From: an uncultured Christensenellaceae bacterium
GTDB lineage: Bacteria > Bacillota > Clostridia > Christensenellales > UBA3700
DNA length: 64,000 nucleotides
NCBI GenBank assembly: GCA_944383895.1
Contig: CALWRH010000009.1
Span: 1-64,000, forward strand
Reading direction: 5' to 3'
Shown here: piece after piece, positions 6,237-52,303 of the stretch
Position numbering within the stretch: the stretch's first letter is position 1
How the letters are laid out: each line of letters opens with the position of its first letter
Notes under the pieces: model-generated
What the model saw: only the letters and a program-made list of their open reading frames with translations
Database searches by the model: none
What the model was told of the DNA's origin: nothing
Made by a program: the position numbers and the translations under genes

Positions 6237-7583
6237 ATGACAGATAAGACCATATTGGATAAATACGAGCAGCAATGTCTGAACAGTTATCCTCTCGATA
6301 CTTCTCTTTACGACCAATTTCACGTCAAGCGCGGTTTGCGCGATAAATCCGGGCAGGGCGTGGTCGCAGGTATTACGAACATTTCCAAGATAGTTTCGTC
6401 AAAGGAAGTCGACGGCGAGCTTGTGCCGTGCGAGGGAGAGCTTTATTATCGCGGATACAGCATAGAACAGCTTGTAGACGGATTGATGAAGGACGATAGA
6501 TACGGGTTTGAAGAAATAGCGTATCTGCTATTGTTCGGGGAGTTGCCTGATAAAAATCAGCTCGAAGAACTTACCGCTACGCTTTCGGACTTGCGCAAAC
6601 TGCCTCGTAATTTCACTAAAGACGTAATTCTTAAAGCTCCGAGCAAAGACATGATGATGGGACTTTCGAGAAGCGTGCTGACGCTCGGTTCTTACGATAA
6701 GAGGGCGGACGATATAAGCGTGCACAACGTGATAAGACAATGTCTTATGCTGATAAGCGTATTCCCGATGATAAGCGTATACGGATATCACGCATACAAC
6801 CATTACGAGTGCGACGACAGTCTTTACATACATCATCCCGATCCGCATCTGAGCACGGCGCAGAACTTTTTGCGTATGTTGAGACCCGACAAGAAGTTTT
6901 CTGAGCTCGAGGCAAAAGTTCTCGATCTTGCGCTGATACTTCACATGGAGCACGGGGGAGGAAACAACTCCACGTTTACGACGAGAGTGGTCACGTCTTC
7001 GGGCACGGATACTTATTCTGCGATATCTGCCGCGCTCGCGTCGCTGAAGGGTCCCAAACACGGCGGAGCAAACCTCAAGGTAGTGCAGATGATGAAACAC
7101 ATAAGAGAGCACGTCGGAGATATTGAGGACGAAGACGAAATATATGATTATCTGATAAAGATATTGCGCAAGGAAGTCTTCGATCATAAAGGGTTGATAT
7201 ACGGTATGGGACATGCAGTCTATTCGCTGTCCGATCCGAGAGCGCAGGTGTTCAAACGTTTTGTCGGAGAGTTGTCTAAATCGAAAGGCAAGAGCAAGCT
7301 CTATACCTTCTACGAAACGGTGGAAAGACTTGCCGCAAAAGCGATAGCAAGCGAGCGCAGGATATATAAAGGCGTATCTGCCAACGTAGATTTTTACAGC
7401 GGTTTCGCTTACAGCATGCTGGGAGTGCCGAAGGAACTGTATACCCCGATGTTTGCGATAGCGCGTATAGTCGGCTGGTCGGCACACAGACTCGAAGAGC
7501 TGATAAACGCGGATAAAATAATAAGACCCGCGTATAAAGATATAGTACAGATAAGAGATTACAAGACGCTCGGAGAGAGATGA
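6237..7583 (+). CDS. gltA: Citrate synthase
   Basis: Condenses acetyl-CoA and oxaloacetate to citrate, feeding glutamate synthesis in an anaerobe with a partial TCA cycle. It is 448 aa. Motifs are LHMEHGGGNNSTFTTRV (catalytic His region), SLKGPKHGGAN and the C-terminal SAHRLEEL. The start is set by an excellent site, AAAGGAGGTAACC then ATG. The stop overlaps the next start by 4 nt (ATGA), which couples it to the CHR transporter pair downstream, an unusual partnership for citrate synthase. Confidence 0.95.
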   Translation: MTDKTILDKYEQQCLNSYPLDTSLYDQFHVKRGLRDKSGQGVVAGITNISKIVSSKEVDGELVPCEGELYYRGYSIEQLVDGLMKDDRYGFEEIAYLLLFGELPDKNQLEELTATLSDLRKLPRNFTKDVILKAPSKDMMMGLSRSVLTLGSYDKRADDISVHNVIRQCLMLISVFPMISVYGYHAYNHYECDDSLYIHHPDPHLSTAQNFLRMLRPDKKFSELEAKVLDLALILHMEHGGGNNSTFTTRVVTSSGTDTYSAISAALASLKGPKHGGANLKVVQMMKHIREHVGDIEDEDEIYDYLIKILRKEVFDHKGLIYGMGHAVYSLSDPRAQVFKRFVGELSKSKGKSKLYTFYETVERLAAKAIASERRIYKGVSANVDFYSGFAYSMLGVPKELYTPMFAIARIVGWSAHRLEELINADKIIRPAYKDIVQIRDYKTLGER

Positions 7584-8509
7584 AAAAAATATCCGCAGAC
7601 AGGGTCAGGCTTGCATTGACCCTGTTTTTGAGTTATCTGAAAATAGGCTTGTTTACGTTCGGGGGCGGCTATGCGATGATCGCGCTTATAGAGCGTGAAT
7701 TCGTCGTCCGCAAAAAATGGATCAACGAAGTCGAACTCTATGAGATAATCGCCATAGCAGAATCCACACCGGGACCGATAGCCATAAACTGCGCCACTTT
7801 CGTGGGATATAAGATACTAGGTTTTGTCGGATCTTTCCTTGCGACTCTTGCCGTATGCATACCGTCTTTCGTAATAATATATCTGATTTCCATATTTTAC
7901 GATACCTTCATGTCGCTTACGGTGATAGCCAACGCTTTCGAGGGCATAAAAGTCGGCATAGCGATAATGATCACTACCGCGGGCGTGAATATGATACGCA
8001 AGGCAAAAAAGAACGCGTTTGCGATAGGGATCTTTCTGTTGACATTTGCTGCGGCGGTCTGTATCGATATTTTTTCTCTCAACTTTTCTACGATATACAT
8101 CATACTTATAGGCGCTGCGCTCGGTATAGTATTGCAGATAGCGAGAGATATCGCGGCGATGAAAAAAGGAACGCCTACGGCAAGTTCTGATGCGGCGCGA
8201 GAAAACAGCAACAACGAAACGGGCGTGGTCAAGACGGGCAAAGCGTCCGAGATAATATGCCGTGACGGCGACTATTCATACGGCATGGGCGAAGAGCTCA
8301 GAAAAGAATTGTCGGTTTCTGAAGATAAAAAACAAAATAATGTTTCTGACATAGATGCTGAAATTATAGACACGGGTACAGAAAATTTATCTCAGAAATC
8401 TGTCGGGAAGTATACTGATGAGAAATCGGCGGCAAGCGGGAGCTTACCCGGACAAAGCGCTGCGGATGCAAGCGAAGACGGCAACGGCGGAAAGGAGGAC
8501 GAGACATGA
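7580..8509 (+). CDS. CHR (chromate) family transporter, first half, with hydrophilic tail
   Basis: Membrane protein of the chromate ion transporter family, short-chain type that works as a pair with the next gene. Residues 1-195 carry the CHR domain with FTFGGGYAMIALIERE, the AESTPGPIAINCATF signature and about six membrane segments. Residues about 200-309 form a charged, low-complexity tail (ASEIICRDGDYSYGMGEELR onward) not found in typical short CHR proteins. It overlaps gltA and the second half by 4 nt on each side. Chromate may not be the natural substrate. The tail might be regulatory. Confidence 0.88.
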   Translation: MKKISADRVRLALTLFLSYLKIGLFTFGGGYAMIALIEREFVVRKKWINEVELYEIIAIAESTPGPIAINCATFVGYKILGFVGSFLATLAVCIPSFVIIYLISIFYDTFMSLTVIANAFEGIKVGIAIMITTAGVNMIRKAKKNAFAIGIFLLTFAAAVCIDIFSLNFSTIYIILIGAALGIVLQIARDIAAMKKGTPTASSDAARENSNNETGVVKTGKASEIICRDGDYSYGMGEELRKELSVSEDKKQNNVSDIDAEIIDTGTENLSQKSVGKYTDEKSAASGSLPGQSAADASEDGNGGKEDET

Positions 8510-9081
8510 ACATTTATCTCGAACTCTTTCTCGTTTTTCTCAAGATAGGCGCGGTATCCTTCGGCGGCGGATACGGTATGATATCGTTTATTCAGCAGGA
8601 AGTCGTTTCACGCGGATGGCTTGATTACGATACGCTCTGGAATTATATCGCGATCGCAGAATCCACTCCCGGACCGATAGCAGTAAATATAGCTACGTTT
8701 ATAGGCAGTAATCAAGCTGGTTTCCTGGGCAGCCTTCTGGCAACGTTGGGCATAGTTCTGCCTGCGTTCTGCATAATTCTCATCATAGCGACCGTATTCA
8801 AGAACTTCGCAAAAAACAAATACGTCAAAGCGGCTTTCGAGGGTATTACGCCCGTGATATGGGGACTTATTATATCCACGGGACTTCTGCTCGTCGTACA
8901 GTGCCTTTACGCAAATTACAAGAATTTCGAAGTCGCTGGCACGTTCAATTGGCACGCTCTGATAATATTTGCTATCGTCGGCGTTACAATGATAGTGTAC
9001 AGGCTGATAAAGAAAAAGAGCATGCCCCCGATAGCTACTATACTTGTGTCCGCTGTTGCAGGTATGATATATTTTATTTAG
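8506..9081 (+). CDS. CHR (chromate) family transporter, second half
   Basis: Partner of the preceding CHR protein (191 aa, the standard short-chain length). It repeats the family motifs: AVSFGGGYGMISFIQQE and IAESTPGPIAVNIATFIGS, with about six hydrophobic segments. The two halves probably assemble in antiparallel fashion to form one transporter. ATGA overlap with the upstream gene indicates coupling; the ribosome site is GGAGGACGAGAC inside the upstream tail. Confidence 0.9.
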   Translation: MNIYLELFLVFLKIGAVSFGGGYGMISFIQQEVVSRGWLDYDTLWNYIAIAESTPGPIAVNIATFIGSNQAGFLGSLLATLGIVLPAFCIILIIATVFKNFAKNKYVKAAFEGITPVIWGLIISTGLLLVVQCLYANYKNFEVAGTFNWHALIIFAIVGVTMIVYRLIKKKSMPPIATILVSAVAGMIYFI

Positions 9082-10059: not shown

Positions 10060-11331
10060 TTATTTTGCGTTACGCTTATCGTCGTATTCCGCTACTGCAT
10101 CGACGGTCTTGACGAGAAGTTCGAAAGAGTCCGCAAGTACGTCTTCGTCAAGGTTTTCGACGGTGTCCTTTATCGTGTGATAATAATCCGTCGTGGTCGG
10201 GTTCTGCGCGTTCAGAGTTACGGTTTTTATGCCTATGCGCGAAAGAGGAGTGGAGTCGCAGCCGCCTGCGGGGTTCTTGATGATACTCGGCTTGAGGTTC
10301 ATATCCTCCATTACCTTATAACATACGTCGGTCAGATCTTTGTCGAAAGTACTTCTCAGCCACACGTCGCCGTTGACTACGTTGTAATAGTCTGCGTCTC
10401 TGAAAGAGTCGAGATTGAGGACGTATGTACGGTCGTTGAAGAATCCGTCGTCTTTATGCTTTTCGCAGAAGGCGGAGGCGCCTTTGAGTCCTGCCTCTTC
10501 GCTGCCGAATCCCATGCAGACTATGCGGCAGTCCTTGGGAGCTTTGTCGGGATTTTCTTTGTAATATTTCGCAATCGCGACGGCAAGCGCGCATCCTGTC
10601 AGATTGTCCATTGCTCCGGGGGACGCTTTGGTTTTGTCCCACGTCAGATAAATGCTGAGCCAATAACAGCCGGGCAGACACAGGAGGGGGAGGAAGTACA
10701 GCACGATCCTGAAAATGTCGAGGCCGCTGTATTCTTCGAGCGACGCTATTTCTTTGATCGACATAAAGCTGATGTTGCCTACGCAAATAGCCACTACCGA
10801 AATGATCATGATCGCCAATATACTGACGACGCCGATAACTGTTTTGGGTATGGCTGTTTTGGGATTTGTCAGAGAAAGATTCCAGTTCCAGCTGCTGTCC
10901 ATGTGTCCTGCAAGAACGATCGTGCGTTTTGTTTCTCCGCTTGCGGGATCGACGCTGTTGTATACGTTCTGCGATTGTCCCTTCCTGAACAGGAAGTCCA
11001 TTTTTGCTGAATATGTAAACACCTGTACCGCTGCGAGAATAAAGTCGAACACAGTCGTGATAAGGCTTGCGATAGGCGATACATAGTACAGTCCGAAGCT
11101 GATAATTCCAATAAGTCCGAGTATCGGGATCGCTGCAATGGATGCGCGGGGAGCGCATGTGAAAGTTTCCGTAACGGAAGGCTTGCCCGTTGCCTTTTCC
11201 ATCTTGTCTGCAATGATCTTTGCACCGAGTTTTTCTTCGGGCGACGTAGGCAGACGCGGACCCGTCTTGTCTATGACGTCTTTTGCAAATTCAATGACGA
11301 ACTTTGCGTTTTCTCGTTTGATTTTTTCCAT
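10060..11331 (-). CDS. Membrane-anchored M28 family zinc aminopeptidase
   Basis: Peptidase of the M28 family (423 aa) using two zinc ions. Candidate ligands are His in LAGHMDSS, Asp in GAMDNLTG, Glu pair in GFGSEEAGLKG, Asp in NLDSFRD and His in DYYHTIKD. Unusual for M28, the protein has two hydrophobic pairs: about residues 75-115 before the first ligand and a further pair before GAMDNLTG. This suggests a membrane-embedded enzyme with the active site formed by split segments. The start at 11331 has AAGGGAG upstream; the upstream ATG at 11349 is less likely. Confidence 0.85.
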   Translation of the reverse strand: MEKIKRENAKFVIEFAKDVIDKTGPRLPTSPEEKLGAKIIADKMEKATGKPSVTETFTCAPRASIAAIPILGLIGIISFGLYYVSPIASLITTVFDFILAAVQVFTYSAKMDFLFRKGQSQNVYNSVDPASGETKRTIVLAGHMDSSWNWNLSLTNPKTAIPKTVIGVVSILAIMIISVVAICVGNISFMSIKEIASLEEYSGLDIFRIVLYFLPLLCLPGCYWLSIYLTWDKTKASPGAMDNLTGCALAVAIAKYYKENPDKAPKDCRIVCMGFGSEEAGLKGASAFCEKHKDDGFFNDRTYVLNLDSFRDADYYNVVNGDVWLRSTFDKDLTDVCYKVMEDMNLKPSIIKNPAGGCDSTPLSRIGIKTVTLNAQNPTTTDYYHTIKDTVENLDEDVLADSFELLVKTVDAVAEYDDKRNAK

Positions 11332-11591
11332 AAACACTCCCTTATGCATTTAATAGTTTCATTATAGCATAGCGGCAATTGCCAAAACAATAGAAAGCCG
11401 AAACTAATTTTTTGAAATAATCGTACAAATCAAAGGGAAACGTCTTGTATTACCCATATAGAAAAAACACGATAAATAAAGGGCAAAACGGCTGAAAATT
11501 GGTCATGCAATGTAAAAAATTAATCATTGACTACACGCGCTGAAAGTGTTAAACTATATATAATGATTTTGTAATTATAGGAGGAATCACA

Positions 11592-13178
11592 ATGAAGGTT
11601 ACATATACCGAGCTCAAAGGCAAACAGGAAGCAGGTTACGGCGTTACCAGATGGGCTAATGCCAAAGAGATCAACGCAAGCCTTAAAGAGCTTACCGACG
11701 CCAACATATACAGCGTGCCGAAGGAAGAGTATGACAAGATAGTTTCTGAATACTATGACAAGAAATGCTCTAAGTCCAAGGCAATTACCGCAGAGGCAAA
11801 AGAGTACATCCCCGGCGGCGTACAGCACAATCTTGCGTTCAACAAGCCGTTCCCGATGTGCATGGTCAAGGCGGAGGGCGCGTATCTGACCGACATTGAC
11901 GGCAATCAATATATCGACTTCCTGCAGGCAGGCGGTCCGACTATCCTCGGCAGCAATTTTCCTGCGGTAAGAGACGAAGCGATAAAACTCATCAAGGAGT
12001 GCGGACCCGTTACCGGTCTTTTCCACGAGGCGGAGCTCCTTATCGCAAAAGAGATAAACAAGCACATGCCTAACGTTGAGAAATTCCGTATGCTGGGCAG
12101 CGGTACTGAATCCGTCATGGCTGCTATCCGTATCGCAAGATGCGCTACCAAGAACAAGAGAATAATCAAGGTAGGCGGCGCATATCACGGCTGGTCCGAC
12201 CAGATGGTTTACGGACTTAAAGTTCCCGGTACCAGACAGTTCCTCGAGTCTCACGGTATTCCTAACAACATTTTCTCCGTTGTGGACGAAGTAAGACCCA
12301 ACGATCTCAACATGCTCGAGACTTACCTCAAGCTCAACAAGATGAGAGGAGGCACAGCTGCAGTCATCGTAGAGCCTGTAGGACCCGAGTCCGGTACCAG
12401 ACCCGTTGACTGGGATTACAATGCAAACGTCAGAAAGCTTTGCGACGAATACGGATGTCTGTTCATATTCGACGAAGTCGTTACCGGTTTCAGAGTCGGT
12501 CTCGGCGGCGCGCAGGGCTTGTTCGGCGTAAAACCCGACCTTACCGTTTTCGGAAAGATCGTTGCAGGCGGATATCCTGCGGCAGGCGGCGTAGGCGGCA
12601 AGAGAGAATACGTCAACCTTATGGCGGCAGGCGTTGCAGGCGGCATGAAGAAAGCTTACGTCGGCGGTACGCTGGCAGCTAACCCGCTTTCCGCTATGGC
12701 AGGTTATGTCGCTATCAAAGAGATCGCAAAGAACAATGCTTGCGTAAAAGCAGGTCTTGCGGGCAACAGACTTACCGACGGTCTCGTAAGACTTATCGAC
12801 GCTTACAAACTGCCTTACGTTGCATATAACCAGGGCTCTATCGTTCACCTCGAGTGCACGGGCGCAATGAGCTACGACTTCTCGTCCATGAACATCCTCA
12901 ACCTGCTCAAGGTCCTCAAGAAGAAAGACATGATCATGGTAAGAAAAGAGGCTATGGAACACATGGGCGCTGCTTACATGTCTCGCGGCATAGTTACTCT
13001 CGCAGGCAGCCGTCTGTACACCTCTATGGCAGATACCGACGAAATCATCGACGAGGCACTCAACCGTTTCGAAGACGTATTCAAGCTCGTCAAAGAGCGC
13101 AAGACTCCGATGGAGCAGCAGGTTGCGGAATATCGCGCAAGAAAAGAGGCTTCCAAAGCGGCAGCGGCAAAGAAATAA
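11592..13178 (+). CDS. Class III PLP-dependent aminotransferase (GSA aminomutase-like)
   Basis: PLP fold-type I aminotransferase related to glutamate-1-semialdehyde aminomutase. The active-site Lys is in VFGKIVAGGYPAAGG; IFDEVVTGFRVG supplies the PLP-contacting Asp; MLGSGTESVMAAIRIAR and GGAYHGWSD are family motifs. At 528 aa it is about 100 residues longer than HemL, with an extra N-terminal 50 residues and a Lys/Ala-rich tail. No other heme genes are near. It heads a group with a sugar kinase and two class II aldolases, so an amino sugar or amino polyol substrate is more likely. Codon use (ATC, AAG, CTC) is biased, implying high expression. Confidence 0.85.
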   Translation: MKVTYTELKGKQEAGYGVTRWANAKEINASLKELTDANIYSVPKEEYDKIVSEYYDKKCSKSKAITAEAKEYIPGGVQHNLAFNKPFPMCMVKAEGAYLTDIDGNQYIDFLQAGGPTILGSNFPAVRDEAIKLIKECGPVTGLFHEAELLIAKEINKHMPNVEKFRMLGSGTESVMAAIRIARCATKNKRIIKVGGAYHGWSDQMVYGLKVPGTRQFLESHGIPNNIFSVVDEVRPNDLNMLETYLKLNKMRGGTAAVIVEPVGPESGTRPVDWDYNANVRKLCDEYGCLFIFDEVVTGFRVGLGGAQGLFGVKPDLTVFGKIVAGGYPAAGGVGGKREYVNLMAAGVAGGMKKAYVGGTLAANPLSAMAGYVAIKEIAKNNACVKAGLAGNRLTDGLVRLIDAYKLPYVAYNQGSIVHLECTGAMSYDFSSMNILNLLKVLKKKDMIMVRKEAMEHMGAAYMSRGIVTLAGSRLYTSMADTDEIIDEALNRFEDVFKLVKERKTPMEQQVAEYRARKEASKAAAAKK

Positions 13179-13210
13179 GCAAGATACGGATTTTAATATC
13201 CTGTGCGGAC

Positions 13211-13243
13211 GGGTTGCACACCGACAAGGTGCGCAACCCTTTT
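13211..13243 (+). terminator. Hairpin between aminotransferase and kinase genes
   Basis: GGGTTGC-A-CACC and GGTG-C-GCAACCC form a stem followed by TTTT. It would end or attenuate the aminotransferase transcript and lower expression of the kinase-aldolase genes. Confidence 0.7.
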
Positions 13244-13303
13244 CCATATATTTTCTGAAACACAATATATTTTGAAAACATACGACATCGAGGAGTGAAT
13301 TTT

Positions 13304-14845
13304 ATGGGCAGATACATTATCGCGCACGATATGGGCACGAGCTCTGACAAAGCGGTGCTTGTGGATTTCGAAGGTCATATCATAGGCACTAAGACAGAGC
13401 CTTATCCGACCTATTATCCCAGCCCCGGATTTGTGGAGCAGAATCCCGACGAATATTGGAACGCTGTTTGCGAGGCTACCAAAAAATTGGTCGAAGAACA
13501 GAAGATCGATCCCGCAGACGTAAAAGGCGTTGTATTTTCTACTCAGGCAATGGGCATTATACCGATCGATCAGTGGGGCAACGTTCTCCACAACAACATA
13601 ACCTGGGTCGACGGCAGAGCTGAAAATCAGGCACGCTCTATTATGCGCAAATTCGGCGGCAAACGCATATTCAAACTTCTTGCGGGCACGCCGATAATGG
13701 GCAAGGATGTTATAGCAAAACTTATCTGGCTCAAAGAAGAACGTCCCGACGTATACAACAATACGAAATACTTCCTCGACGTAAACGGATATCTGAAATT
13801 CAAGTGCACGGGCGAGATGGTCGCGGAATACAGCGGCGCGTCAAGCTACGGTCTCGATCTCAAGAAAAAGACGTGGCTGTCCGTACTCAGCCTTACGGGG
13901 CTCGATATGTCCAAACTTCCGCCGCTCGTCAAGAGTACGGATCAGATCGGCGCGGGACTTACTGCCAAGGCTGCAGAAAAGATGGGACTTCTCGAAGGTA
14001 CGGCGGTATTCGGCGGCTGCGACGATACGCAGAGCGCGTGCGTAGGCAGCGGTATGAACGGAGACGGCGACATACATATTTATCTCGGCACTTCGGCATG
14101 GGTCGGCGCGGCAAGCAAGGATCAGACGGCTTTCAAGCACGGCGCGGCGGCGATCCAGAGCGCGGACGTAAATATGAACCTCGTAGTAGGCATTACAGAG
14201 GCGGCAGGCAGCAATATCCAATGGCTTATCGATCAGTTCTTCCGCACAGAGCAGAAGGAACTCGGCGACGGTATATACGCATACATGGATAAAGTAATCG
14301 AGAGCATACCCGCGGGCAGCAATCACCTTATCTGCACGCCGTGGATGCTCGGCGAGAGATGCCCCGTCAGCACTACGACGACGCGTGCGACTCTGTTCAA
14401 TATAGGACCCGAACACACCAGAGAGCACCTGATGAGGGCGGTTTACGAAGGTATAGGATACAACCTTAGATGGATACTCGAAAACTTTGAAAAGGATTAC
14501 GGTTTCCATTGCAGACAGTTCCGCATAATCGGCGGCGGCGCGCTGGACAACGCGTGGATGCAGATCATTGCGGATATAACGGGCGCGGAATTCGCTATCG
14601 TGGACAATCCGCGCAACGCAGGCGCTCTCGGCGCCGCGATAATCGCGCTTATAGGACTCGGAGAACTCGAGAATTTCGAGGCGGCGAAACAGTTTGTCAA
14701 AGAAAGCAAGACTTATCGCCCCAATTCCGTAAACGCGCATATTTACGACGAAATGTTCATGACGTACAAGAGACTTTATAAGAGCCTCAAGAGAACGTAT
14801 TATAAGGCAAACGCATTGAGATTCGGAGGACAGGACAATGATTGA
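13304..14845 (+). CDS. FGGY-family carbohydrate kinase
   Basis: Sugar or polyol kinase (513 aa) of the FGGY family, closest in style to xylulokinases. The ATP-binding N-terminal motif is AHDMGTSSDKAVLVD, with GGCDDTQSACVGSG in the middle and the C-terminal adenosine region IIGGGALDNAWMQIIAD. ATG 13304 has GAGGAG 8 nt upstream. Its stop overlaps the next gene by 8 nt. With two aldolases directly downstream, it probably phosphorylates a ketose or keto-polyol that is then cleaved. The exact substrate cannot be read from the sequence. Confidence 0.88.
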   Translation: MGRYIIAHDMGTSSDKAVLVDFEGHIIGTKTEPYPTYYPSPGFVEQNPDEYWNAVCEATKKLVEEQKIDPADVKGVVFSTQAMGIIPIDQWGNVLHNNITWVDGRAENQARSIMRKFGGKRIFKLLAGTPIMGKDVIAKLIWLKEERPDVYNNTKYFLDVNGYLKFKCTGEMVAEYSGASSYGLDLKKKTWLSVLSLTGLDMSKLPPLVKSTDQIGAGLTAKAAEKMGLLEGTAVFGGCDDTQSACVGSGMNGDGDIHIYLGTSAWVGAASKDQTAFKHGAAAIQSADVNMNLVVGITEAAGSNIQWLIDQFFRTEQKELGDGIYAYMDKVIESIPAGSNHLICTPWMLGERCPVSTTTTRATLFNIGPEHTREHLMRAVYEGIGYNLRWILENFEKDYGFHCRQFRIIGGGALDNAWMQIIADITGAEFAIVDNPRNAGALGAAIIALIGLGELENFEAAKQFVKESKTYRPNSVNAHIYDEMFMTYKRLYKSLKRTYYKANALRFGGQDND

Positions 14846-15467
14846 CAACAAGACAAAAGAAGTGGTAATGCAGTATGCGGCTAAGATAGTCGCTGAGGGC
14901 ATGAACGGCAAGGGAGACCGCATTGCGATGCGTACAAAGGACGGCTTTTGCGTGAACGATGCGTCGGCAGCTCTCGACACGCTTAAAGAAGAAGATCTCA
15001 TCGAACTTCCGCTCGATACGGATGACAAGGATTTTGCCGTAATAGCGAAACTTTTCAGCAAGCGTCCCGAGATTCACGCACTGCTTTATACTCACGCGCC
15101 TTTCGTATGCGCGGTAGCGAGAGCAAAGGCGACTATTCCCGCAGTGCTTGACGATATGACTCAGATAGTCGGACTCAACTGCAAGACGTGCAAGAGCGCA
15201 ACGACGGACGATCTCGTAAAAGGACTCAGAAAGAGAAATTCAGTGCTCGTACCGGGCGGCGGCGCGCTTACCGTGGGCAGGACCATGGACGAGGCTTATA
15301 CCTGCGCGCTCGTACTCGACAAGGCGAGCCACGCTTACGTCTGCGGCAGCGTTATCGGCGGCAACAAGATAATAAATTGCATCGAGGCAAAACTCATGAA
15401 CTTCATCTATCAGAAGAAGTACAGCAAGGTAAATCAGGAAAACATCTCAAAAAGGGAGGGCGAATAA
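14838..15467 (+). CDS. Class II aldolase/adducin-like protein, metal site lost
   Basis: FucA/AraD-fold protein (209 aa) without the usual zinc ligands. The first His of the HxH pair is Tyr84 (YTHAPF, only His86 remains). The NHG position reads VPGGGALTVGR, and the catalytic Glu of the SSE motif is not found before KRPEIHALLY. It overlaps the kinase by 8 nt and lies one codon space before an intact paralogue. It is best read as a non-catalytic partner subunit or a regulator; a different chemistry cannot be excluded. Confidence 0.8.
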   Translation: MIDNKTKEVVMQYAAKIVAEGMNGKGDRIAMRTKDGFCVNDASAALDTLKEEDLIELPLDTDDKDFAVIAKLFSKRPEIHALLYTHAPFVCAVARAKATIPAVLDDMTQIVGLNCKTCKSATTDDLVKGLRKRNSVLVPGGGALTVGRTMDEAYTCALVLDKASHAYVCGSVIGGNKIINCIEAKLMNFIYQKKYSKVNQENISKREGE

Positions 15468-15468
15468 G

Positions 15469-16125
15469 ATGGCTTGGACTAAGGAAGAAGAACTCAGACT
15501 GCGCAAGGTCATCAAGGACAGCGGCGTAAATCTGCTCAAAGAAAATCTGGTACAGGGTACCTGGGGAAATACGGCGGTAAGACTCGACGAGGATCATATG
15601 CTCGTGACTCCCACCGGTCTTGACTACGTTGCACTTCAGCCCGAAGACATGCCCGTAGTTCAGATAAGCGATACGTCCGTATGGAGCAACGGCAAGAAAC
15701 CGACCAGCGAAAGAAAGATACACGCTGCCATCATGAGCGACAGACCCGAGATCAACGCGACGATACACTCTCACCCCGTATGGTGTTCAGTGCTTGCGTC
15801 CGCGCGCATCGAACTTCCCGTAATGAGTGACGAAATGCAGAAACTCGTCGGCGGACCCGCACGCGTGGGAGCTTACGGCTTGCCGGGCACGAAGACTCTC
15901 AAAGAAGGTACGGTTGCCGCTATGAAAGGCAGAAACGCTTGCTTTATGGCAAATCACGGCGTATTCTGCGCGGGCAGAGATATGGACGAGGCTTTCGAGA
16001 TCATCCGCGTTATGGAGAAGAGTTGCAGAGAATATATCAAGCAATGCACTCTCAAGATCACGGGACAGCTCGAATACAGCGACGAACTGCTGTTCGATTA
16101 TTTCGTAAGTAAATATGGCAAATAA
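15469..16125 (+). CDS. Class II aldolase (FucA/AraD family), intact
   Basis: Zinc-dependent aldolase or epimerase (218 aa) that would cleave a phosphorylated sugar, probably to DHAP and an aldehyde. Candidate metal ligands are His100 and His102 (ATIHSHPVW) and His163 (FMANHGVFCAG). Glu81 in PTSERKIH is the likely catalytic acid. GGGAGG precedes the start. It directly follows the degenerate paralogue, and its last codons overlap mrnC by 11 nt. The pairing suggests a mixed active/inactive oligomer. Confidence 0.88.
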   Translation: MAWTKEEELRLRKVIKDSGVNLLKENLVQGTWGNTAVRLDEDHMLVTPTGLDYVALQPEDMPVVQISDTSVWSNGKKPTSERKIHAAIMSDRPEINATIHSHPVWCSVLASARIELPVMSDEMQKLVGGPARVGAYGLPGTKTLKEGTVAAMKGRNACFMANHGVFCAGRDMDEAFEIIRVMEKSCREYIKQCTLKITGQLEYSDELLFDYFVSKYGK

Positions 16126-16549
16126 AACGGACTTTCTGCCTTTGGCGGGACATACCGTAACTGAAAAACAGGCGCGGGAGCTCAACCCTCTAGTGCTTGC
16201 GTATATAGGCGACAGCGTGCAGATGCTGTACGTCCGCACCCGTACCGCGCTCGAGTCGGGTTGCAAGGCGGGCGTTCTGCACAAGATGGTTTCTCAGGAA
16301 GTCAAGGCGCACTCGCAGGCAGTCGCGGCTGAAAAGATAATGCCGTTGCTCACCGAAGAGGAGCAGGGCGTCTATCGCCGCGCTAAAAACAGCCATACCA
16401 ACAATATAGCAAAAAACGCTACGAGCGTCGATTACAGAAAAGCGAGCGGACTTGAAGCTCTGATAGGATATCTGTATATCAGCGGGCAGAACGAAAGGCT
16501 CAGAGAACTGCTTGAAAAAGCGTCTGAAGACGCAGACAATGCGGACTGA
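16115..16549 (+). CDS. mrnC: Mini-ribonuclease 3
   Basis: Mini-III matures 23S rRNA ends in Bacillota; it is an RNase III catalytic domain without the dsRNA-binding domain. At 144 aa it is full length. The conserved ELNPLVLAYIGDSVQMLYVR carries the catalytic Asp, and KASGLEALIGYLYISG carries the second acidic site. It overlaps the aldolase by 11 nt and starts the housekeeping run mrnC-thyX-rlmB-sigH, the same order seen in other Clostridia. Confidence 0.93.
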   Translation: MANKTDFLPLAGHTVTEKQARELNPLVLAYIGDSVQMLYVRTRTALESGCKAGVLHKMVSQEVKAHSQAVAAEKIMPLLTEEEQGVYRRAKNSHTNNIAKNATSVDYRKASGLEALIGYLYISGQNERLRELLEKASEDADNAD

Positions 16550-19506: not shown

Positions 19507-19887
19507 ATGAAGAAGATCACGACAGTCGCGCTTATAGCGCACGATCAGAAAAAAGCAGAAATGGTAAGCTGGGCGATGAAGAACAAAGAGTCGCTCTCAA
19601 GGTTCAATCTTTGCGGAACGGGTACAACGGCAAAACTCGTAGGCGACGCAACGGGACTCGATGTCAAGAGATATCTCTCGGGACCTCTCGGCGGCGACCA
19701 GCAAATAGGCGCAAAGATAGCTGAAGGCGAGATCGACGCGGTCGTATTCTTCTGGGATCCGCTCAACGCGCAGCCGCACGATCCCGACGTAAAGGCGTTG
19801 CTCCGTATCGCAGTCGTATACGATATCCCGATAGCGACCAATACCGCGACGGCAAACTACGTCATCACTTCTACGCTGATGAAATAA
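19507..19887 (+). CDS. mgsA: Methylglyoxal synthase
   Basis: Converts dihydroxyacetone phosphate to methylglyoxal and phosphate as a bypass when sugar phosphates accumulate. It is 126 aa. [20 protein letters not shown] (phosphate loop), [19 protein letters not shown] with the catalytic Asp region and [20 protein letters not shown] are all typical. It is monocistronic with its own promoter and terminator. Confidence 0.96.
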
Positions 19888-42590: not shown

Positions 42591-44210
42591 CTAAAAGATA
42601 AAATATCCGAACAGTAAGAAATAAGGCAACCCGAGATATTTCGGATTGCCTTGTTCTATGCCTGCAAAAAGGTGATAAAAGAAAAAGCAAACAAAGACAG
42701 GTTCGACTTTGTTTGCGTATGGTGGAACGACAGATTTCAAACTCGATTTGAAGGAAACGTTATAAGCCCGACAGTCTTCGGTCGGGAAGTTGTCGGGCTC
42801 GTCGTTTTGAGGCGTATCGCAGAAGTTAAAGTGAATATCAATTTTGTCATCATAAAGAATCACCTTGCGGATCATCGTATCTATAATAAGCTGAGGTTCC
42901 AGCTCGGGCAGAATTGTAAGGAATTCGATAATTTGCTCTCGCGTAATTAAGTTGGCATCCTTGTTTTCCTCTTCGAGGATTTTGCGGTTGAGAATATTGA
43001 TCTCGTCTTCAAGTTCTGTCATTCGTTGCTTTGTTGTCGAGGTGATGATACCTTCTTCAATTGCCGCAAGAAGGTTTTTCAGTGACTTTTGTTTCTTATC
43101 CCTGTCTTCTTTCAAAAGATTTAGAACATATTGATTCTGATGGCGTTTGCGGTGAATGTCAGCAACAGAATCGGCAATGCGTTCAACTATTTCAGGCGTA
43201 TTCAATATGTCCATTGTTGTTTGCAAGACAATTTTTTCGATATCGTCTTTACGCACAGTTTTTTTAGGACAAGCAGAGCTTTTCTTTTTCTTTGTAGAAC
43301 ATTTATAGTAATAGTTGACTTTTCCATTGTTGGAAGTGCCGCTTTCTCCGTTCATATTTTTACCGCAAAAACCGCAAAAGAGTTTTCCTTTCAAAAGAAA
43401 AACAGTATCCCTGCTGTGAGAGCCAAGTTTGTTTTTGGCAAGTATTGTTTGAATTGTCTTAAACAACTCCGTAGCAACAATTTGAGGAAATGCGTTTGTA
43501 TACTTTTTGCCGTTATGGAAGTAATAGCCGATATATCGGGTGTTTCTCAATATCTTGTAAATCGCATTGGGCAGGAAAGGTTTGCCTCTATGGGACAGCC
43601 CCTGATTATGTAGGATATCAATGATCTCTCGTGCGGACAGACCGGATGCGTATTGACTGAAGATGTAACGTACAGCTTCTGCCTCATCGTCGTCAACAAC
43701 AACTTTTTTGTTTATGACTTTGTATCCGTAAGTGATACCGCCTCCGACAAAGTTTCCTTTTTCTCGGCTTTCGTTTTGTCCTCGGCGAATCTTTTGTGAG
43801 AGTTCTGCAGAATAATATTCGGCTATGCCGATCATTACGTTTTCGAGGATTATCCCGTCAAGGTTTTGAGAACCGTCAATATTTTGAGACGTTCTTTGAG
43901 TTGCAGATATAAGAATTTTGCCGTTTTTCTGCAAACGTTGCTTATTGATTGCTATTTCAATAGAATTTCTACCGAATCTATCGAGAGCGTAAACGAGAAC
44001 GATGTCCCATTCATGCGAGGTATCGCTATCTGATAACATTCTTTGAAATTCCGCTCTATGGTCGTTAGTCCCGGTCATAGCACGATCAATATAAGTTCCT
44101 ACGATTTGCAATTCGTTACGCTCGGCAAATTCATTACATACTCTGAGCTGACCTTCAATGGATTGCTCAGATTGTCTTTCGCTTGAGTATCTCGCATATA
44201 TCACTGTCAC
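42591..44210 (-). CDS. Large serine recombinase (site-specific integrase)
   Basis: Large serine recombinase (539 aa). The resolvase domain starts VIYARYSSERQSEQSIEGQL with catalytic Ser in YSSER; YALDRFGRNSIEI is the Arg-containing helix. The recombinase domain (GGGITYGYKVINKK) follows, then the zinc ribbon CGFCGKNMNGESGTSNNGK plus CSTKKKKSSACPKK, then a coiled coil (about 365-430). The last 60 residues (FVCFFFYHLFAG onward) read through two hairpins (42623-42652 and near 42690), so the natural end was probably earlier. Related to the recombinase at 47.4-49.1 kb. Confidence 0.9.
   Translation of the reverse strand: MTVIYARYSSERQSEQSIEGQLRVCNEFAERNELQIVGTYIDRAMTGTNDHRAEFQRMLSDSDTSHEWDIVLVYALDRFGRNSIEIAINKQRLQKNGKILISATQRTSQNIDGSQNLDGIILENVMIGIAEYYSAELSQKIRRGQNESREKGNFVGGGITYGYKVINKKVVVDDDEAEAVRYIFSQYASGLSAREIIDILHNQGLSHRGKPFLPNAIYKILRNTRYIGYYFHNGKKYTNAFPQIVATELFKTIQTILAKNKLGSHSRDTVFLLKGKLFCGFCGKNMNGESGTSNNGKVNYYYKCSTKKKKSSACPKKTVRKDDIEKIVLQTTMDILNTPEIVERIADSVADIHRKRHQNQYVLNLLKEDRDKKQKSLKNLLAAIEEGIITSTTKQRMTELEDEINILNRKILEEENKDANLITREQIIEFLTILPELEPQLIIDTMIRKVILYDDKIDIHFNFCDTPQNDEPDNFPTEDCRAYNVSFKSSLKSVVPPYANKVEPVFVCFFFYHLFAGIEQGNPKYLGLPYFLLFGYFIF
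42623..42652. terminator. Hairpin at the recombinase 3' end
   Basis: AAGGCAA-C-CCGA and TCGG-A-TTGCCTT form a stem; T-rich or A-rich on both sides. A second hairpin GCAAACAAAG/CTTTGTTTGC lies at about 42687-42716. Confidence 0.65.
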
Positions 44211-44324
44211 ATATTTTTATGGATACTTACTAAAAAGGATAAATTTTCGGATTTTGGAATCAAAAATTGAAAAGCCTCTCCGAATTTGTTTTTTCGGGTG
44301 GCTATGGTAGCATTAGTTCCTCGT

Positions 44325-44477
44325 GGAAGTCAACGGTCGAAAAATCGTTGCCGAAAACACCAATATAAACGAATCGAGAGCCGAGTAAGGAAGTTTTCCT
44401 TGCTCGGCTCTTTTGCTGTTTGTGAGGCTATTGCACGTTCAAAACGCAACGATTTTGGCTTTGCCCCGTTGACTTCC
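44325..44477 (+). other. Structured element upstream of sigma-like gene, copy A
   Basis: Arms GGAAGTCAACGG (44325-44336) and CCGTTGACTTCC (44466-44477) are exact inverse complements. Inside is the hairpin GAGCCGAG..AAGGAA/TTCCTT..CTCGGCTC followed by TTTT (about 44373-44413). The same layout occurs at 50066-50126 and, on minus, at 63297-63148, each upstream of a copy of the same gene family. Confidence 0.7.
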
Positions 44478-44493
44478 GCAGACCAATCGAGAA

Positions 44494-44949
44494 CATGCTT
44501 TTATCGGATGGCTACGACGTAGCGCAGACCGCCATCTGCTTCTGTATCAATTCATAGGTAAGAAGGTATCGGACATTTACGGAAAAGACCGTAGAGGAAA
44601 AGAGATCATAATCAAACTTGCCTGCTATTGGAAAGTAGACGGCGAACTGATGCGTTACCGCAGAAAGATGGAGAACATTTCATACATTGATTTTAACAGT
44701 TACAAGGCATTGCCGATGGATCCCGTAAACTGCTTTGAAAAAGAACAGACGGATTACAACAAATACAATACACTTGTCGAAGCCCTGTGCTTGACAGAAT
44801 TGGAGCTTGCTATTCCAAACTGCTATATGAACGGAATGAGACAATCCGAAGTCTGCGCCGAACTCGGCATCGGCAGAGACGCGATCCACCATAGAAAAGC
44901 AAGCATCCAACAGAGATGTTATACGCTTTACGGCGCGTATTTGATTTGA
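44494..44949 (+). pseudogene. Truncated, frameshifted copy of the sigma-like HTH gene
   Basis: Remnant of the gene family seen intact at 50218 and 62391. SDGYDVAQTAICF (from 44494) matches TDGYDCAQIAICF; a one-base shift near 44536 moves the match to LYQFIGKKVSDIYGKDRRGK and on to YKALPMDPVNCFEKEQ and the final HTH (MRQSEVCAELGIGRDAIHH). About 70 N-terminal codons are missing. The structured element copy A sits directly upstream. Confidence 0.8.
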
Positions 44950-45065
44950 CATATTTCATACTGTGAAGAAATGCAGTCTACTTGTTGAAGTGACTACCTT
45001 TTTACGTCAATATTTATTGAAAAAGAGAATACAGCCTGCGCGAGTAGTGAAAAACATTAAGAGAA

Positions 45066-45365
45066 TTACAAGTAATTATTTAAGCCATCGCGGTATAATG
45101 AGCGAAACTTGTCCCGTAATGATTGCGGCTCTATAATTTCCGCATCTTTGGCAAAGCGGAAGAAGAAATATAGTGCTTGCAACTCAGAACAGTTGAAAAC
45201 ATAGATATCATTTTCTTCTATGGCGACATGCATAGGGCGGTGAATGACGGAATACTCATAACTTTTTAAGCCGTCGTCGGTAAATCTGACTTTAATTACA
45301 GTTTTTGGAGCGGTTATAAAAGTTGCTCCGAATTCTGACAAATTTTCAACAACCTCTTTTTTCAT
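45066..45365 (-). pseudogene. C-terminal fragment of a WYL-domain regulator
   Basis: 99 residues matching the C-terminal extension of WYL-domain transcription factors: TVIKVRFTDDGLKSYEYSVI, then EENDIYVFNCSELQALYFFF, and AEIIEPQSLRDKFRSLYRDG. No HTH or WYL core is present; upstream sequence changes abruptly near 45415 into a luxS remnant. It is the remainder of a gene broken by deletion or insertion. Confidence 0.6.
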
Positions 45366-45426
45366 GCTTTCTGATACAAGAGATGCCTTACCGGTCGCCC
45401 TGATTTTTTCGATACAAGACTCCCGC

Positions 45427-45619
45427 CGACGCGTACGGGCTCGTCGTCGGGATGTGCGAGTTCATTCTAGGCTACGACGGAGAGATCCCGGGAGCGAAAG
45501 CTGCGGAATGCGGCAATTATCTCGAACAAAACCTGTCCGAGGCAAAGTATTACGTCCGTAGATATCTGAACGAACTCAAGGAAAACAAAAGATACGACTA
45601 TCCGACCGCGACCGAATGA
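45427..45619 (+). pseudogene. luxS: 3' fragment of luxS (S-ribosylhomocysteine lyase)
   Basis: Open frame without a start reading DAYGLVVGMCEFILGYDGEI, then PGAKAAECGNYLEQNLSEAK, as in the C-terminus of LuxS of Clostridia (the ECGNY box holds the second Cys region). The N-terminal half with the HxxEH iron site is missing. The codon use is that of the chromosome, not of the mobile genes. It abuts the WYL fragment at about 45415. Confidence 0.72.
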
Positions 45620-45662
45620 GAGTTGCGCTTCGGCGCAGAAAACCGAAAAGGATGCCAAACGC

Positions 45663-45691
45663 TTGATTGCCCGCCGTCCGTCTGCTATAAT
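45663..45691 (+). promoter_or_regulatory. Promoter of the ABC-F gene leader
   Basis: TTGATT (45663-45668), 17 bp, TATAAT (45686-45691). It gives a leader of about 175 nt before the ABC-F start. Confidence 0.75.
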
Positions 45692-45724
45692 TGATTTATC
45701 CGCAAAACGACGAGGTGAAACGAA

Positions 45725-45742
45725 ATGTATTTTCTTGCATAA
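45725..45742 (+). CDS. Five-residue leader peptide MYFLA
   Basis: ATG TAT TTT CTT GCA TAA preceded by GAGGTG at 7 nt spacing. Short leader peptides with strong ribosome sites commonly control ABC-F resistance genes by ribosome stalling. A later small hairpin GTAAGA/TCTTAC with GGTTTTTTG (about 45826-45855) could be the conditional terminator. Role inferred from position. Confidence 0.6.
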   Translation: MYFLA

Positions 45743-45871
45743 AAGTTATCTATGACGGGGGCTCCCGTTACTTTGCAGGAAAATCGAGAGATCGGCAAAA
45801 CCGAAATACGTGTATACGAGAACAGTAAGATTGATTTTCTTACGGTTTTTTGTTTTAAGGAGAAACGCTAT

Positions 45872-47338
45872 ATGTCAATGATAAAGATAGAAGACCTTAC
45901 CTTCGGATATCCCGCAAGCGCAGAAAACGTGTTCGAAGAGCTCAACGCGGTGATCGACACCGACTGGAAGTTGGCTTTGACCGGCAGAAACGGCAGAGGC
46001 AAGACGACTTTGCTCAAATTGCTTAGCGGAGAATACGAGTATAAAGGCAAGATAAAAGGCGGCGTACGGTGCGACTATTTTCCGTATACGGTAAAAGAGA
46101 TCGACGCGACCGTGTCGGAAGCGGTCTTCGGCATATGTCCGTCCGCCGAGGAATGGGAGGTCGCGAGGGAGTTCTCGTGCCTGGGATTGGACAGGTCGGC
46201 TTTGTATATGCCGTTCGGGCGGCTTTCCGACGGAGAAAAGACGAAGGTTTTGCTTGCCGCGATGTTTCTTAACGACGGACGGTTCATGTTGATAGACGAA
46301 CCTACCAATCATCTCGACGCGAAAGCGCGAGCTCAGGTGGCGGCATATCTGAACAAAAAGAGAGGTTTCGTACTCGTATCTCACGACAGAGCGTTTGCGG
46401 ACGCATGCGTGGATCACGTAATGGCGTTGAACAGAACCGGCGTCGAGATTAGGAGCGGAAATCTGACCGCGTGGCTGAACGATTTCGAGGACAGACAGAA
46501 CGCAGAGCAAAAACAGAACGAAAAACTGCAAACCGAGATCAAAAGGCTCAGGCAGTCCGCCGTGCGCAGCGCGGAGTGGGCAAGACGTACCGAAGCCGAA
46601 AAGACGGGCTGCGGACCCGTAGACAGAGGTTATATAGGACATAAAGCCGCGAAAATGATGAAACACGCCAAAGTCATTGAAGACAGACAGCGCAGGTTGA
46701 TCGGCGAGAAGGAATCGCTTTTGCGGGATACGGAGATCGCGGACAGGTTGAAAATGAACGCCTTGCAATATCGATCGGACGTTTTGGCGGACTTGTCGTC
46801 CGTGCAGATCGTTTATGACGGCGTTGCCGTCAACAAGCCTGTTTCGTTTGCGGTGACCAAAGGAAAAAGGATAGCGTTAAACGGCTGTAACGGCTGCGGA
46901 AAAAGCAGTATCGTCAAAGCTTTGCTCGGACGGAAAACGGAATATACGGGGCGGATAAGCGTCGGCAGCGGGCTGACGATATCGTACGTGCCGCAGGACG
47001 CGTCGGCATTCTCGGGCAATATCCGCGAAAAACTGAAAGACGACGGAGTCGAAGAAAGTCTGTTCATGGCTACGCTTTTCAAAATGGGCGTGGAGGAAAA
47101 TCCTCTCGGCAAGGATATCCGCGAACTGTCCGACGGGCAGCGAAAAAAGGTCTTGCTTGCCGAAAGTATGTGCCAAAGAGCGCATCTGTATATCTGGGAC
47201 GAACCGTTGAACTATATCGATATATATACCCGAGTCCAGATAGAGCGCCTTATAAAAGAATTTTGCCCCACAATGGTGTTTATCGAACACGACTCCGCTT
47301 TCCGCGATTCGGTCGCGACCGAAGTGATAGATATGTGA
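45872..47338 (+). CDS. ABC-F ribosomal protection protein, Lsa type
   Basis: Soluble twin-ATPase (488 aa) expected to displace lincosamide, pleuromutilin or streptogramin A antibiotics from the ribosome. Walker A motifs GRNGRGKTTLLKL and GCNGCGKSSIVKA; signatures RLSDGEKTK and LSDGQRKKV; Walker B LIDEPTNHLD and WDEPLNYID. The interdomain linker is charged and helical (about 195-285). AAGGAGAAACGCTAT sets the ATG. Lsa(A) has a similar length. G+C-rich codons suggest a chromosomal or related-host origin. Confidence 0.88.
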   Translation: MSMIKIEDLTFGYPASAENVFEELNAVIDTDWKLALTGRNGRGKTTLLKLLSGEYEYKGKIKGGVRCDYFPYTVKEIDATVSEAVFGICPSAEEWEVAREFSCLGLDRSALYMPFGRLSDGEKTKVLLAAMFLNDGRFMLIDEPTNHLDAKARAQVAAYLNKKRGFVLVSHDRAFADACVDHVMALNRTGVEIRSGNLTAWLNDFEDRQNAEQKQNEKLQTEIKRLRQSAVRSAEWARRTEAEKTGCGPVDRGYIGHKAAKMMKHAKVIEDRQRRLIGEKESLLRDTEIADRLKMNALQYRSDVLADLSSVQIVYDGVAVNKPVSFAVTKGKRIALNGCNGCGKSSIVKALLGRKTEYTGRISVGSGLTISYVPQDASAFSGNIREKLKDDGVEESLFMATLFKMGVEENPLGKDIRELSDGQRKKVLLAESMCQRAHLYIWDEPLNYIDIYTRVQIERLIKEFCPTMVFIEHDSAFRDSVATEVIDM

Positions 47339-47375
47339 CCGATCCTCGTCGTTCGCGCAGGCATAGAGGAGCGGT

Positions 47376-47606
47376 GCGACGGAGTCGCCGTGCAGGGGAA
47401 GTCCTTTCGTGAAAAAGCCCGAGTCAAACGACTCGGGTAGTGGTGCGGACAACAGGACTTGCCTTACAGCGAGCGCCCGACAGGGGAACGGCGAGCCGCT
47501 CGGTCGGCGAGACGCGCGAGGGTGCACTGCACAGGGCGACGGAGTCGTCGTGCAGGGAAAGTCCTTTCGTGAAAAAGCCCGAGTCAAACGACTCGGGTAG
47601 TGGTGC
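47376..47606. repeat. 71-bp direct repeat with strong hairpin
   Basis: Copies at 47376-47446 and 47536-47606 differ at two bases. Each contains the perfect stem CCCGAGTC AAAC GACTCGGG. They overlap the 3' end of the recombinase frame on minus, which therefore ends in repeat-coded residues (PLPESFDSGFF twice). Confidence 0.85.
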
Positions 47607-49130: not shown

Positions 49131-49149
49131 TGGCAGTATTCCTCCTGAA

Positions 49150-49460
49150 ATTTTTTGCTTACATTGTACGCCTTTACGGCAGGGATGAACAGGCACGGAA
49201 AGCATAGTGTTTCCCACCCGTTTCCCAACGTACCGGTACAAAATCCCAACGGAATAGATATTGTTTCGGTTCGTTTTTCTGCCTTTCGGCGCACCCGAAA
49301 ACGGGAGAGCAAAGCGCAGTCTGTCAAAGGTCTGCCCGCAAGGGACGCACGGGAATTTTATTTGTGTTTTTCCTTTTGCGATTTTCTCGAAATTGCCGCG
49401 CGCCTTTGACGGACAAAGCCGCTCTCCCAACATCCCGAAGACGAAAGGCAGAATCGGCTT
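49150..49460 (-). other. Structured region upstream of serine recombinase (copy 1)
   Basis: About 300 nt without a gene. Long-range arms GGGAGAGC.../GCTCTCCC (about 49301 and 49421) and GTCTGTCAAAGG/CCTTTGACGGAC (about 49318 and 49403) enclose a hairpin TGCCC/GGGAC. The same arrangement is at 54430-54735 with compensated changes in the arms. Confidence 0.65.
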
Positions 49461-49494
49461 GCCGTTTAAGTTCGCGGGAAAAGTATCGCCGAGT

Positions 49495-49687
49495 GCGGTA
49501 TGTAAAGTTCGACTCGGACAAGACGGGCACATTCATCGTCTGTATCCCCGGCGTGGCGTTCGTCATGCCGATGTGGGGGTATGCGCTCATTGCCGTCGCC
49601 TGCGTCCTCGTAGTGGCTGTGGCGATCACTGTTACGATTATTCTCGTCCGCAAAAAGAAAAAAGCGAAGAAAACTGTTGAGGTATAA
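49495..49687 (+). pseudogene. 3' remnant of a surface-protein gene
   Basis: Open frame lacking its start: KFDSDKTGTFIVCIPGVAFV, MPMWGYALIAVACVLVVAVA, ending in a KKKKAKK stop-transfer tail. This is a typical C-terminal membrane anchor of a large extracellular protein. The rest is absent, probably displaced by the recombinase element. Confidence 0.6.
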
Positions 49688-49788
49688 TGAGGTATAGCAA
49701 GCCAAGGCAATATGCATACTCGTAAATCGCAGGGATGTTTTAGATAATCGATCTGAATCGGTAATTATATATTGCTTTGGCACCATGA

Positions 49789-49950
49789 CGTGTGCTTGGC
49801 ATAGACAAGTGGCGTCGCTTCGCTCCGCCAGACAAGCACACGCCTGCATAGCTCTAGAGGGTCGCAGAACGGAAAAGCGAGGGCGAGCGGAGATGCCCGC
49901 TGAACCGCTTTGGGCATTTCTCCGCTTTTCGCCTTCTCGCTTATTTTCCG
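49789..49950 (+). other. Two-hairpin element, copy 1
   Basis: Hairpin H (49789-49842): CGTGTGCTTG/CAAGCACACG outer stem, TGGCG/CGCCA inner stem, loop TCGCTTCGCTC. Long hairpin L (49870-49950): arms CGGAAAA, GCGAG, GGCG, AGCGGAG, TGCCC pair in order with GGGCA, CTCCGC, CGCC, CTCGC, TTTTCCG; apical loop GCTGAACCGCTTT. The same pair is on minus at 57212-57059. Confidence 0.72.
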
Positions 49951-50065
49951 TTTCATTGCGTACCTTATTCCGAACTGCTTATTCGCAGAAAACGTGTTTT
50001 CTTGTCCCATGGCTTTTCTTTTCCTTCGAATTTGCCTTTTCGTTTGGCATTGTCCCATAATCCTC

Positions 50066-50126
50066 CCGAAAGTAAACGGCGAAAAATCCTGTTTCAGGAT
50101 TTTTCTTTTTGTCCGTTGACTTTCGG
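50066..50126 (+). other. Structured element upstream of sigma-like gene, copy B
   Basis: Arms CCGAAAGTAAACGG and CCGTTGACTTTCGG (13 of 14 paired) enclose the hairpin AAATCCTG/CAGGATTTTT. It is a compact version of copies A and C, 90 nt before the gene at 50218. Confidence 0.68.
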
Positions 50127-50217
50127 ATAGCGATTAAAATTTATCTTTACCTCAATTCGGCTTATGTTCCTTTTCTTGCCTGCCGAAAGGCAAATATATT
50201 TTTCGGAGGTAAAGAAA

Positions 50218-50838: not shown

Positions 50839-50844
50839 TCAAAG

Positions 50845-50872
50845 ACGGAGCCGTAACAAGCTCCGTTTTTTC
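50845..50872 (+). terminator. Terminator of the sigma-like gene
   Basis: ACGGAGC/GCTCCGT with loop CGTAACAA, followed by TTTTTTC. Confidence 0.9.
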
Positions 50873-51228: not shown

Positions 51229-51240
51229 CTTTTTTGCGAA

Positions 51241-52299: not shown

Positions 52300-52303
52300 T
52301 TTA

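Follow-up and report, generated by a model that had tools for sequence, protein, structure and literature searches.

What joint task could an aminotransferase, a sugar-type kinase and two aldolase homologues perform when their genes lie side by side? The question is raised by a 64-kb stretch of DNA (hereafter the window) from the 94% complete genome of an uncultured Christensenellaceae bacterium. An earlier sequence-only reading of this window had placed there an aminotransferase (AT), an FGGY kinase (KIN) and two class II aldolases (ALD1 and ALD2) as four contiguous genes, and the domain matches confirmed them. Family models go no further than HemL-, xylulokinase- and aldolase-like labels for the set, and the earlier view that it fits no named pathway was upheld. 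Taken as a whole, the locus may best be explained by the breakdown of an amino-polyol, with phytosphingosine as the best-fitting candidate, an explanation that we hold at somewhat less than even confidence.

Co-inheritance of the four genes

The sequence-only reading had proposed a genome-neighbourhood search for the set and its associated transporters. We scanned 84,980 species genomes with the AT protein, obtained 488 confirmed loci and examined the best 80 of these. The gene order AT-KIN-ALD1-ALD2 recurred in 54 of the 80, one more locus had it with a kinase of a second type (KIN-B, described below), and transporters of the MFS_2/GPH family were linked to the set in relatives. The order was found in at least four different surroundings, namely next to mrnC-thyX-sigH, ahead of genes for a xanthine phosphoribosyltransferase (PRT) and a BMP transporter, behind a TetR gene, and between unrelated flanks. 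Many other relatives had AT behind a TetR gene with no kinase within 10 kb.

Co-inheritance was then measured in 151 genomes of the same order, 28 with AT and 123 without it. ALD2 was present in all 28 AT genomes against 5 of the 123 AT-less ones (Fisher p = 1e-25; this and the p-value below overstate independence, as the sampled genomes are related), and it lay within 10 kb of AT on the same contig in 27 of the 28. The window-type kinase, KIN-A (at least 70% identity), was detected in 18 of the AT genomes, always near AT on the same contig, and the remaining 10 carried KIN-B, a second FGGY family of about 535 aa that is 34-36% identical to KIN-A and adjoins AT and the aldolase in genomes G199, G237 and G260. 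When a dedicated KIN-B search was run over the 151 genomes, orthologues appeared in exactly those ten and nowhere else; each AT genome had exactly one of the two kinases, and neither occurred in the 123 AT-less genomes (p = 4e-31). Shared ancestry by itself would hardly produce such a complementary pattern. The four-gene arrangement is far beyond chance, because its order recurs in several backgrounds and AT and ALD2 occur together.

Uncultured Clostridia of the gut and rumen and other anaerobic members of the class carry the set; its counterpart on a Burkholderia plasmid is more divergent. In the cultured rumen bacterium Butyrivibrio fibrisolvens D1, kinase-aldolase-GtrA-AT lies on plasmid pNP243 (L121:11885-16482), which makes this organism a ready laboratory model for the pathway. 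At four loci (L014, L019, L022 and L026) AT and KIN are separated by gaps of about 1-2 kb with no clear conserved gene, and an Rfam scan of three of these gaps (L014, L022 and L026) gave no family at gathering score.

Active sites of the aldolases, kinases and aminotransferase

FucA splits L-fuculose 1-phosphate with a bound zinc; Glu73 acts on the C3 hydrogen and Tyr113 of the neighbouring subunit on the C4 hydroxyl during C3-C4 cleavage, and the phosphate is held by Asn29, Thr43, Gly44, Ser71 and Ser72 (PMC11841055). In ALD2, E73, H92, H94, H155, G28 and N29 showed no variation among 69 copies, and the remaining phosphate-site residues hardly any. None of the 69 copies keeps FucA Phe131, on the aldehyde side; Pro, Ser or Ala stands there instead, with Pro in the window protein. 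Aldolase family-model scores reached 116 of 264 bits (PRK06833) and 85 of 400 (TIGR01086). ALD1 presented another picture: H155 was missing from all 58 separate or N-terminally fused copies, Burkholderia's included, and ALD1-type domains have lost the phosphate residues and do not have the complete metal site (E73, H92, H94, H155). It is noteworthy that the column of FucA Tyr113, which is not conserved in ALD2 itself, was acidic in 68 of 68 ALD1 sequences (Asp in 63, Glu in 5). In the window protein the Asp pair D105/D106 aligns with FucA 113.

The predicted structure of ALD1 has the FucA fold (predicted local distance difference test 88; best match 4c25, template-modelling (TM) score 0.84). 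ALD1 has a gene of its own at some loci; at 15 loci it is fused ahead of ALD2, and in KIN-B clusters it is fused behind ALD2. The Burkholderia counterpart, a 215-aa 'hypothetical' protein, matched the ALD1 profile at E = 1.6e-7 in a small test set. A predicted model of a fused aldolase gave a predicted TM score of 0.85 over both domains, which fits a fixed arrangement of the domains and leaves unshown which one. These residues mark ALD1 as a degenerate paralogue, presumably a pseudoenzyme, and ALD2 as the one predicted catalytic aldolase, so that of the 'two class II aldolases' read here earlier the two homologues stood and the second catalyst did not. Since ALD1 is kept in every gene order and has an invariant acidic residue at the cross-subunit position, the two proteins probably form a catalytic/pseudoenzyme heteromer with a shared active site, and ALD1 would then be a clear case of a pseudoenzyme retained for that purpose.

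KIN contains FGGY_N (173 bits) and FGGY_C (108 bits), and its GGCDD aligns with the catalytic Asp region of XylB, as expected of a member of the FGGY fold family. Xylulokinase (XylB) itself was considered and rejected, as KIN scored 322 bits against the TIGR01312 model, below the cut-off of 380, and the XylB substrate motif GQMHG is replaced by STQ(A/S)(M/Q)G in 55 KIN-A sequences.

AT matched Aminotran_3 with 182 bits and retains the motifs of the pyridoxal phosphate (PLP) site, namely YHG, DEV, K322 (the PLP lysine) in GKIVAGGYP, and GGTLAANP; its family is further marked by PGGVQHNLAFNxPFP, GGAYHGWSDQ and EPxGPESGTRP. The best overall similarity of AT is to glutamate-1-semialdehyde 2,1-aminomutase (HemL), with which it shares the class III PLP fold, the PLP lysine and the PLP-site residues. 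The sequence-only reading had noted this resemblance without taking AT for HemL, and the distinction held. AT scored 275 bits against the HemL model TIGR00713 (cut-off 527) and differs by an N-terminal extension. The arginine of the HemL motif PGGVNSPVR binds the substrate carboxylate; in AT this motif is replaced by PGGVQHNLAF, near-invariant over 94 members including those of Burkholderia, and the arginine is lost. HemB (ALAD; PF00490) gave no match in this genome, whereas 11 of 14 control genomes matched, and just one other class III aminotransferase is encoded here. The idea that AT is HemL among unrelated sugar genes, the case which the earlier reading had set against itself together with unconserved neighbours, is also contradicted by the complete co-inheritance of AT with kinase and aldolase in the order sample, and we regard it as hardly credible.

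Two variations on this enzyme were recorded. In AT of L113:8579-10222 and L115:6846-8465 and of genomes G300 and G311, about 40 extra residues are inserted in frame immediately ahead of the PLP-lysine loop, around position 312 of the window protein. In L106:12132-14164 and L107:12630-14663 a different class III aminotransferase (25% to AT) is paired with an SCP2 sterol-carrier-like protein close to KIN-B, which in L106 is followed by a co-directional MFS_2 transporter.

Proposed route and its substrate

The transaminase-kinase-aldolase logic suggested by the sequence-only reading is well supported by co-inheritance and by intact catalytic residues, and it is likely that the substrate is deaminated, then phosphorylated, then cleaved. 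In this catabolic route for an amino-polyol, AT would strip the amino group from C2, a keto acceptor such as pyruvate being assumed, to leave a ketone with the 1-hydroxy-2-keto-3,4-dihydroxy head of a ketose. The FGGY kinase would put a phosphate on C1, and the ALD1/ALD2 heteromer would cut C3-C4 to yield dihydroxyacetone phosphate (DHAP), which enters glycolysis, and an aldehyde. ALD2 would supply the metal, the phosphate site and Glu73, and ALD1, in the position of the neighbouring subunit, the acid/base residue in place of Tyr113'. The aldehyde would finally be removed by an aldehyde dehydrogenase (ALDH) or alcohol dehydrogenase; such genes are linked to the set in relatives, and an ALDH gene and several iron-type alcohol dehydrogenase (Fe-ADH) genes lie elsewhere in this genome.

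For the three enzymes to act in sequence, the substrate would need an amine beside a hydroxyl that can be phosphorylated, and two more hydroxyls. Phytosphingosine (2-amino-1,3,4-octadecanetriol) has exactly these groups and would give DHAP and pentadecanal. Its D-ribo configuration places C3 and C4 as in D-ribulose or L-fuculose (D-erythro), the arrangement cleaved by FucA-type and not by RhuA-type aldolases. A precedent for the first step is FumI, a class III aminotransferase that removes the C2 amino group of hydrolysed fumonisin, a sphingoid analogue (PMC2933618).

The genes found with the set in relatives were examined for further clues. In Clostridia and Burkholderia alike, TetR genes stand before or beside the set. 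A class 3 ALDH gene adjoins it in several Clostridia (L109, L117, L118 and L123, the family assignment being checked on L118) and in Burkholderia, and human fatty aldehyde dehydrogenase was among the PDB matches of the Clostridial and Burkholderia enzymes (442 and 320 bits). On the Burkholderia ambifaria plasmid the gene order is TetR / kinase-aldolase-AT-ALD1-like-short-chain dehydrogenase/reductase-ALDH, with an Mpo1-like gene (PF06127) adjacent on the other strand. A membrane M28 hydrolase with about four hydrophobic segments lies directly upstream of AT, in both orientations, in 34 of the 45 KIN-A clusters with a visible upstream gene, and is a probable functional neighbour, its role being inferred only; SCP2 protein and alpha/beta hydrolases are encoded near some copies. 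These neighbours point to a lipid-like context, and in yeast class 3 ALDH and Mpo1 types complete phytosphingosine breakdown. The earlier suggestion of an amino-sugar substrate was thereby weakened, as the accessory genes (class 3 ALDH, Mpo1-like, M28) are at least as suggestive of a lipid-like amine; the claim that no transporter or regulator belongs to the set did not extend to relatives, where TetR and MFS_2/GPH genes are linked. On balance we slightly favour a hydrophobic substrate. Its identification as phytosphingosine, from the chemistry and the neighbours together, is tentative, and a new long-chain-base route, in which phytosphingosine is treated like a sugar and a heteromeric aldolase borrows an acid/base residue from its dead subunit, is more tentative still.

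Several observations weigh against phytosphingosine. Alkaline ceramidase (PF04734) was found in none of the 28 AT genomes, with other amidases such as M28 still conceivable in its place, and the window cluster itself has no class 3 ALDH gene. The Mpo1-like gene was seen at one locus only, on the opposite strand and beside an insertion sequence element, and its product, being of an O2-dependent enzyme type, cannot serve anaerobes. The transporters linked in relatives are of the MFS_2/GPH family, whose bacterial members are usually sugar symporters, and small sugars are the known substrates of FGGY kinases and FucA-type aldolases. KIN-B has a nucleoside operon nearby in one genome and GH27/GH95 glycosidase genes in others.

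Much of this would suit the same chemistry with a small substrate (an amino sugar, aminodeoxy-alditol or amino-ketose) that enters through an MFS_2/GPH symporter and releases a short-chain aldehyde. This reading is the main rival and a real, if doubtful, possibility. Besides the sugar-directed families of kinase and aldolase, it can draw on MFS_2 genes beside or near KIN-B or AT in L105, L106, L108, L110 and L112, on GH27/GH95 near KIN-B in L103 and L106, and on Fe-ADH genes beside some copies of the set. However, the regulators are of the TetR type and not of the LacI, GntR or DeoR types, the linked ALDH belongs to class 3, typical of hydrophobic aldehydes, and no amino-sugar deacetylase or ABC sugar transporter recurs. 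The uniform loss of FucA Phe131 from ALD2 also speaks against a small substrate.

Disposal resembling methionine salvage or the 5-deoxyribose pathway, in which the ketose 1-phosphate would come from a nucleoside-derived aminodeoxy sugar, appears improbable. In its favour, the operon of one genome also encodes an MtnW-like RuBisCO-like protein and an HAD phosphatase, DrdA (6btd) was among the PDB matches of both ALD1 and ALD2, and KIN-B stands beside the nucleoside operon of L104. Yet these pathways have no place for an amino group, no MtnA/DrdI-type isomerase recurs in the neighbourhoods examined, and the window cluster has no nucleosidase. The genes for xanthine PRT and the BMP transporter downstream of the set might also suggest salvage, but they are limited to one lineage and lie at a distance of 229-663 bp; this link was set aside as lineage-specific synteny.

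In genome G019 two contigs (L116:706-8878 and L117:1-3847) overlap by 127 bp at their ends and thus represent a single locus. The joined operon encodes two ATs, both kinases (one window-type), an ALD2-ALD1 fusion, the MtnW-like RuBisCO-like protein, the HAD phosphatase, an Fd-nitroreductase, an amidohydrolase and an ALDH. It may reflect a second, methionine-salvage-like fate of the same ketose 1-phosphate.

Layout of the locus and comparison with known systems

Table 1. Positions of the four genes and adjoining features in the window.
Feature	Position	Strand	Basis or remark
AT, class III PLP aminotransferase, glutamate-1-semialdehyde-aminomutase-like, separate family	11592..13178	+	Pfam/NCBIfam, PDB alignment, family alignment
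KIN (KIN-A type), FGGY carbohydrate kinase	13304..14845	+	FGGY_N + FGGY_C
ALD1, predicted class II aldolase pseudoenzyme, FucA fold	14838..15467	+	Aldolase_II, 58 bits
ALD2, predicted catalytic class II aldolase, FucA/Ru1P-type	15469..16125	+	Aldolase_II, 151 bits
Membrane-anchored M28-family hydrolase	10060..11349	-	divergent from AT
MrnC-type RNase III	16115-16549		11-bp overlap with ALD2 end
Candidate promoter, extended -10, TTGACT-17-TAAACT	11527..11555	+	ahead of AT; weak

The KIN start was chosen by its Shine-Dalgarno sequence, and the KIN, ALD1 and ALD2 genes overlap or abut. The promoter candidate is considered weak because such sites were no more frequent in the region than in shuffled sequence. 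An Rfam scan of the window region and five relatives, with a riboswitch in mind as a substrate clue, gave zero families at gathering score. The strong codon bias reported earlier was confirmed: by effective number of codons among the 43 window genes AT ranked lowest (1st), KIN 3rd, ALD2 7th and ALD1 8th, which is consistent with high expression and no proof of it. A 581-aa open reading frame antisense to AT is taken as a by-product of this bias. Downstream of the set follow the housekeeping genes ThyX, RlmB and SigH, as in many relatives.

Elsewhere in the window, a gene for methylglyoxal synthase, a DHAP-using enzyme, lies 3.4 kb downstream (19507-19887) and is kept in the closest relatives only. 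A split chromate-transporter pair overlapping a citrate synthase gene (6237-9081) forms an apparent operon conserved in close relatives. Several large recombinase-like open reading frames at 42591-54318 point to at least one integrated mobile element in the window's second half.

A search of the available literature returned no relevant paper on the gene set or on the combination of fuculose and phytosphingosine. The chemistry of the single reactions is known; entry by an aminotransferase, exchangeable kinases and the conserved pairing of a live with a dead aldolase are, as far as the searches show, apparently new. Independently of the substrate, the strict exchange of kinases and this conserved pair offer a directly testable three-enzyme pathway. 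If the substrate is phytosphingosine, anaerobic gut bacteria could consume dietary and host sphingolipid bases without sphingosine 1-phosphate (S1P) lyase; such bases are antimicrobial (PMC11893366).

The closest parallels are FucK-FucA and DrdK-DrdI-DrdA (PMC6079011), in which, as proposed here, a metal aldolase of the FucA fold turns a ketose 1-phosphate into DHAP and an aldehyde; ALD2 keeps the FucA active site of the L-fucose pathway. Unlike the fucose and 5-deoxyribose pathways, the set is entered by an aminotransferase and not an isomerase, has two interchangeable FGGY kinase families, pairs its aldolase with a conserved pseudoenzyme, and is accompanied by class 3 ALDH in relatives. The aminopentol aminotransferase FumI (PDB 6hbs; PMC2933618) is likewise a class III transaminase acting on C2 of a sphingoid-like aminopolyol, as proposed for AT. 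However, the two are only weakly similar in sequence (E = 1.6e-19), and the FumI substrate is a 1-deoxy base. We know of no FGGY kinase and aldolase linked to FumI. The sphBC system of Pseudomonas was set aside as different, as it employs a periplasmic oxidoreductase and a cytochrome for sphingosine. Eukaryotic long-chain-base breakdown (sphingosine kinase, S1P lyase, Hfd1/ALDH3, Mpo1) has class 3 ALDH in common with the set, and an Mpo1-like protein with Burkholderia. In the proposed route, by contrast, the amine would leave first and the phosphate would be placed onto a ketone, so that the products would be DHAP and an aldehyde instead of phosphoethanolamine and an aldehyde.

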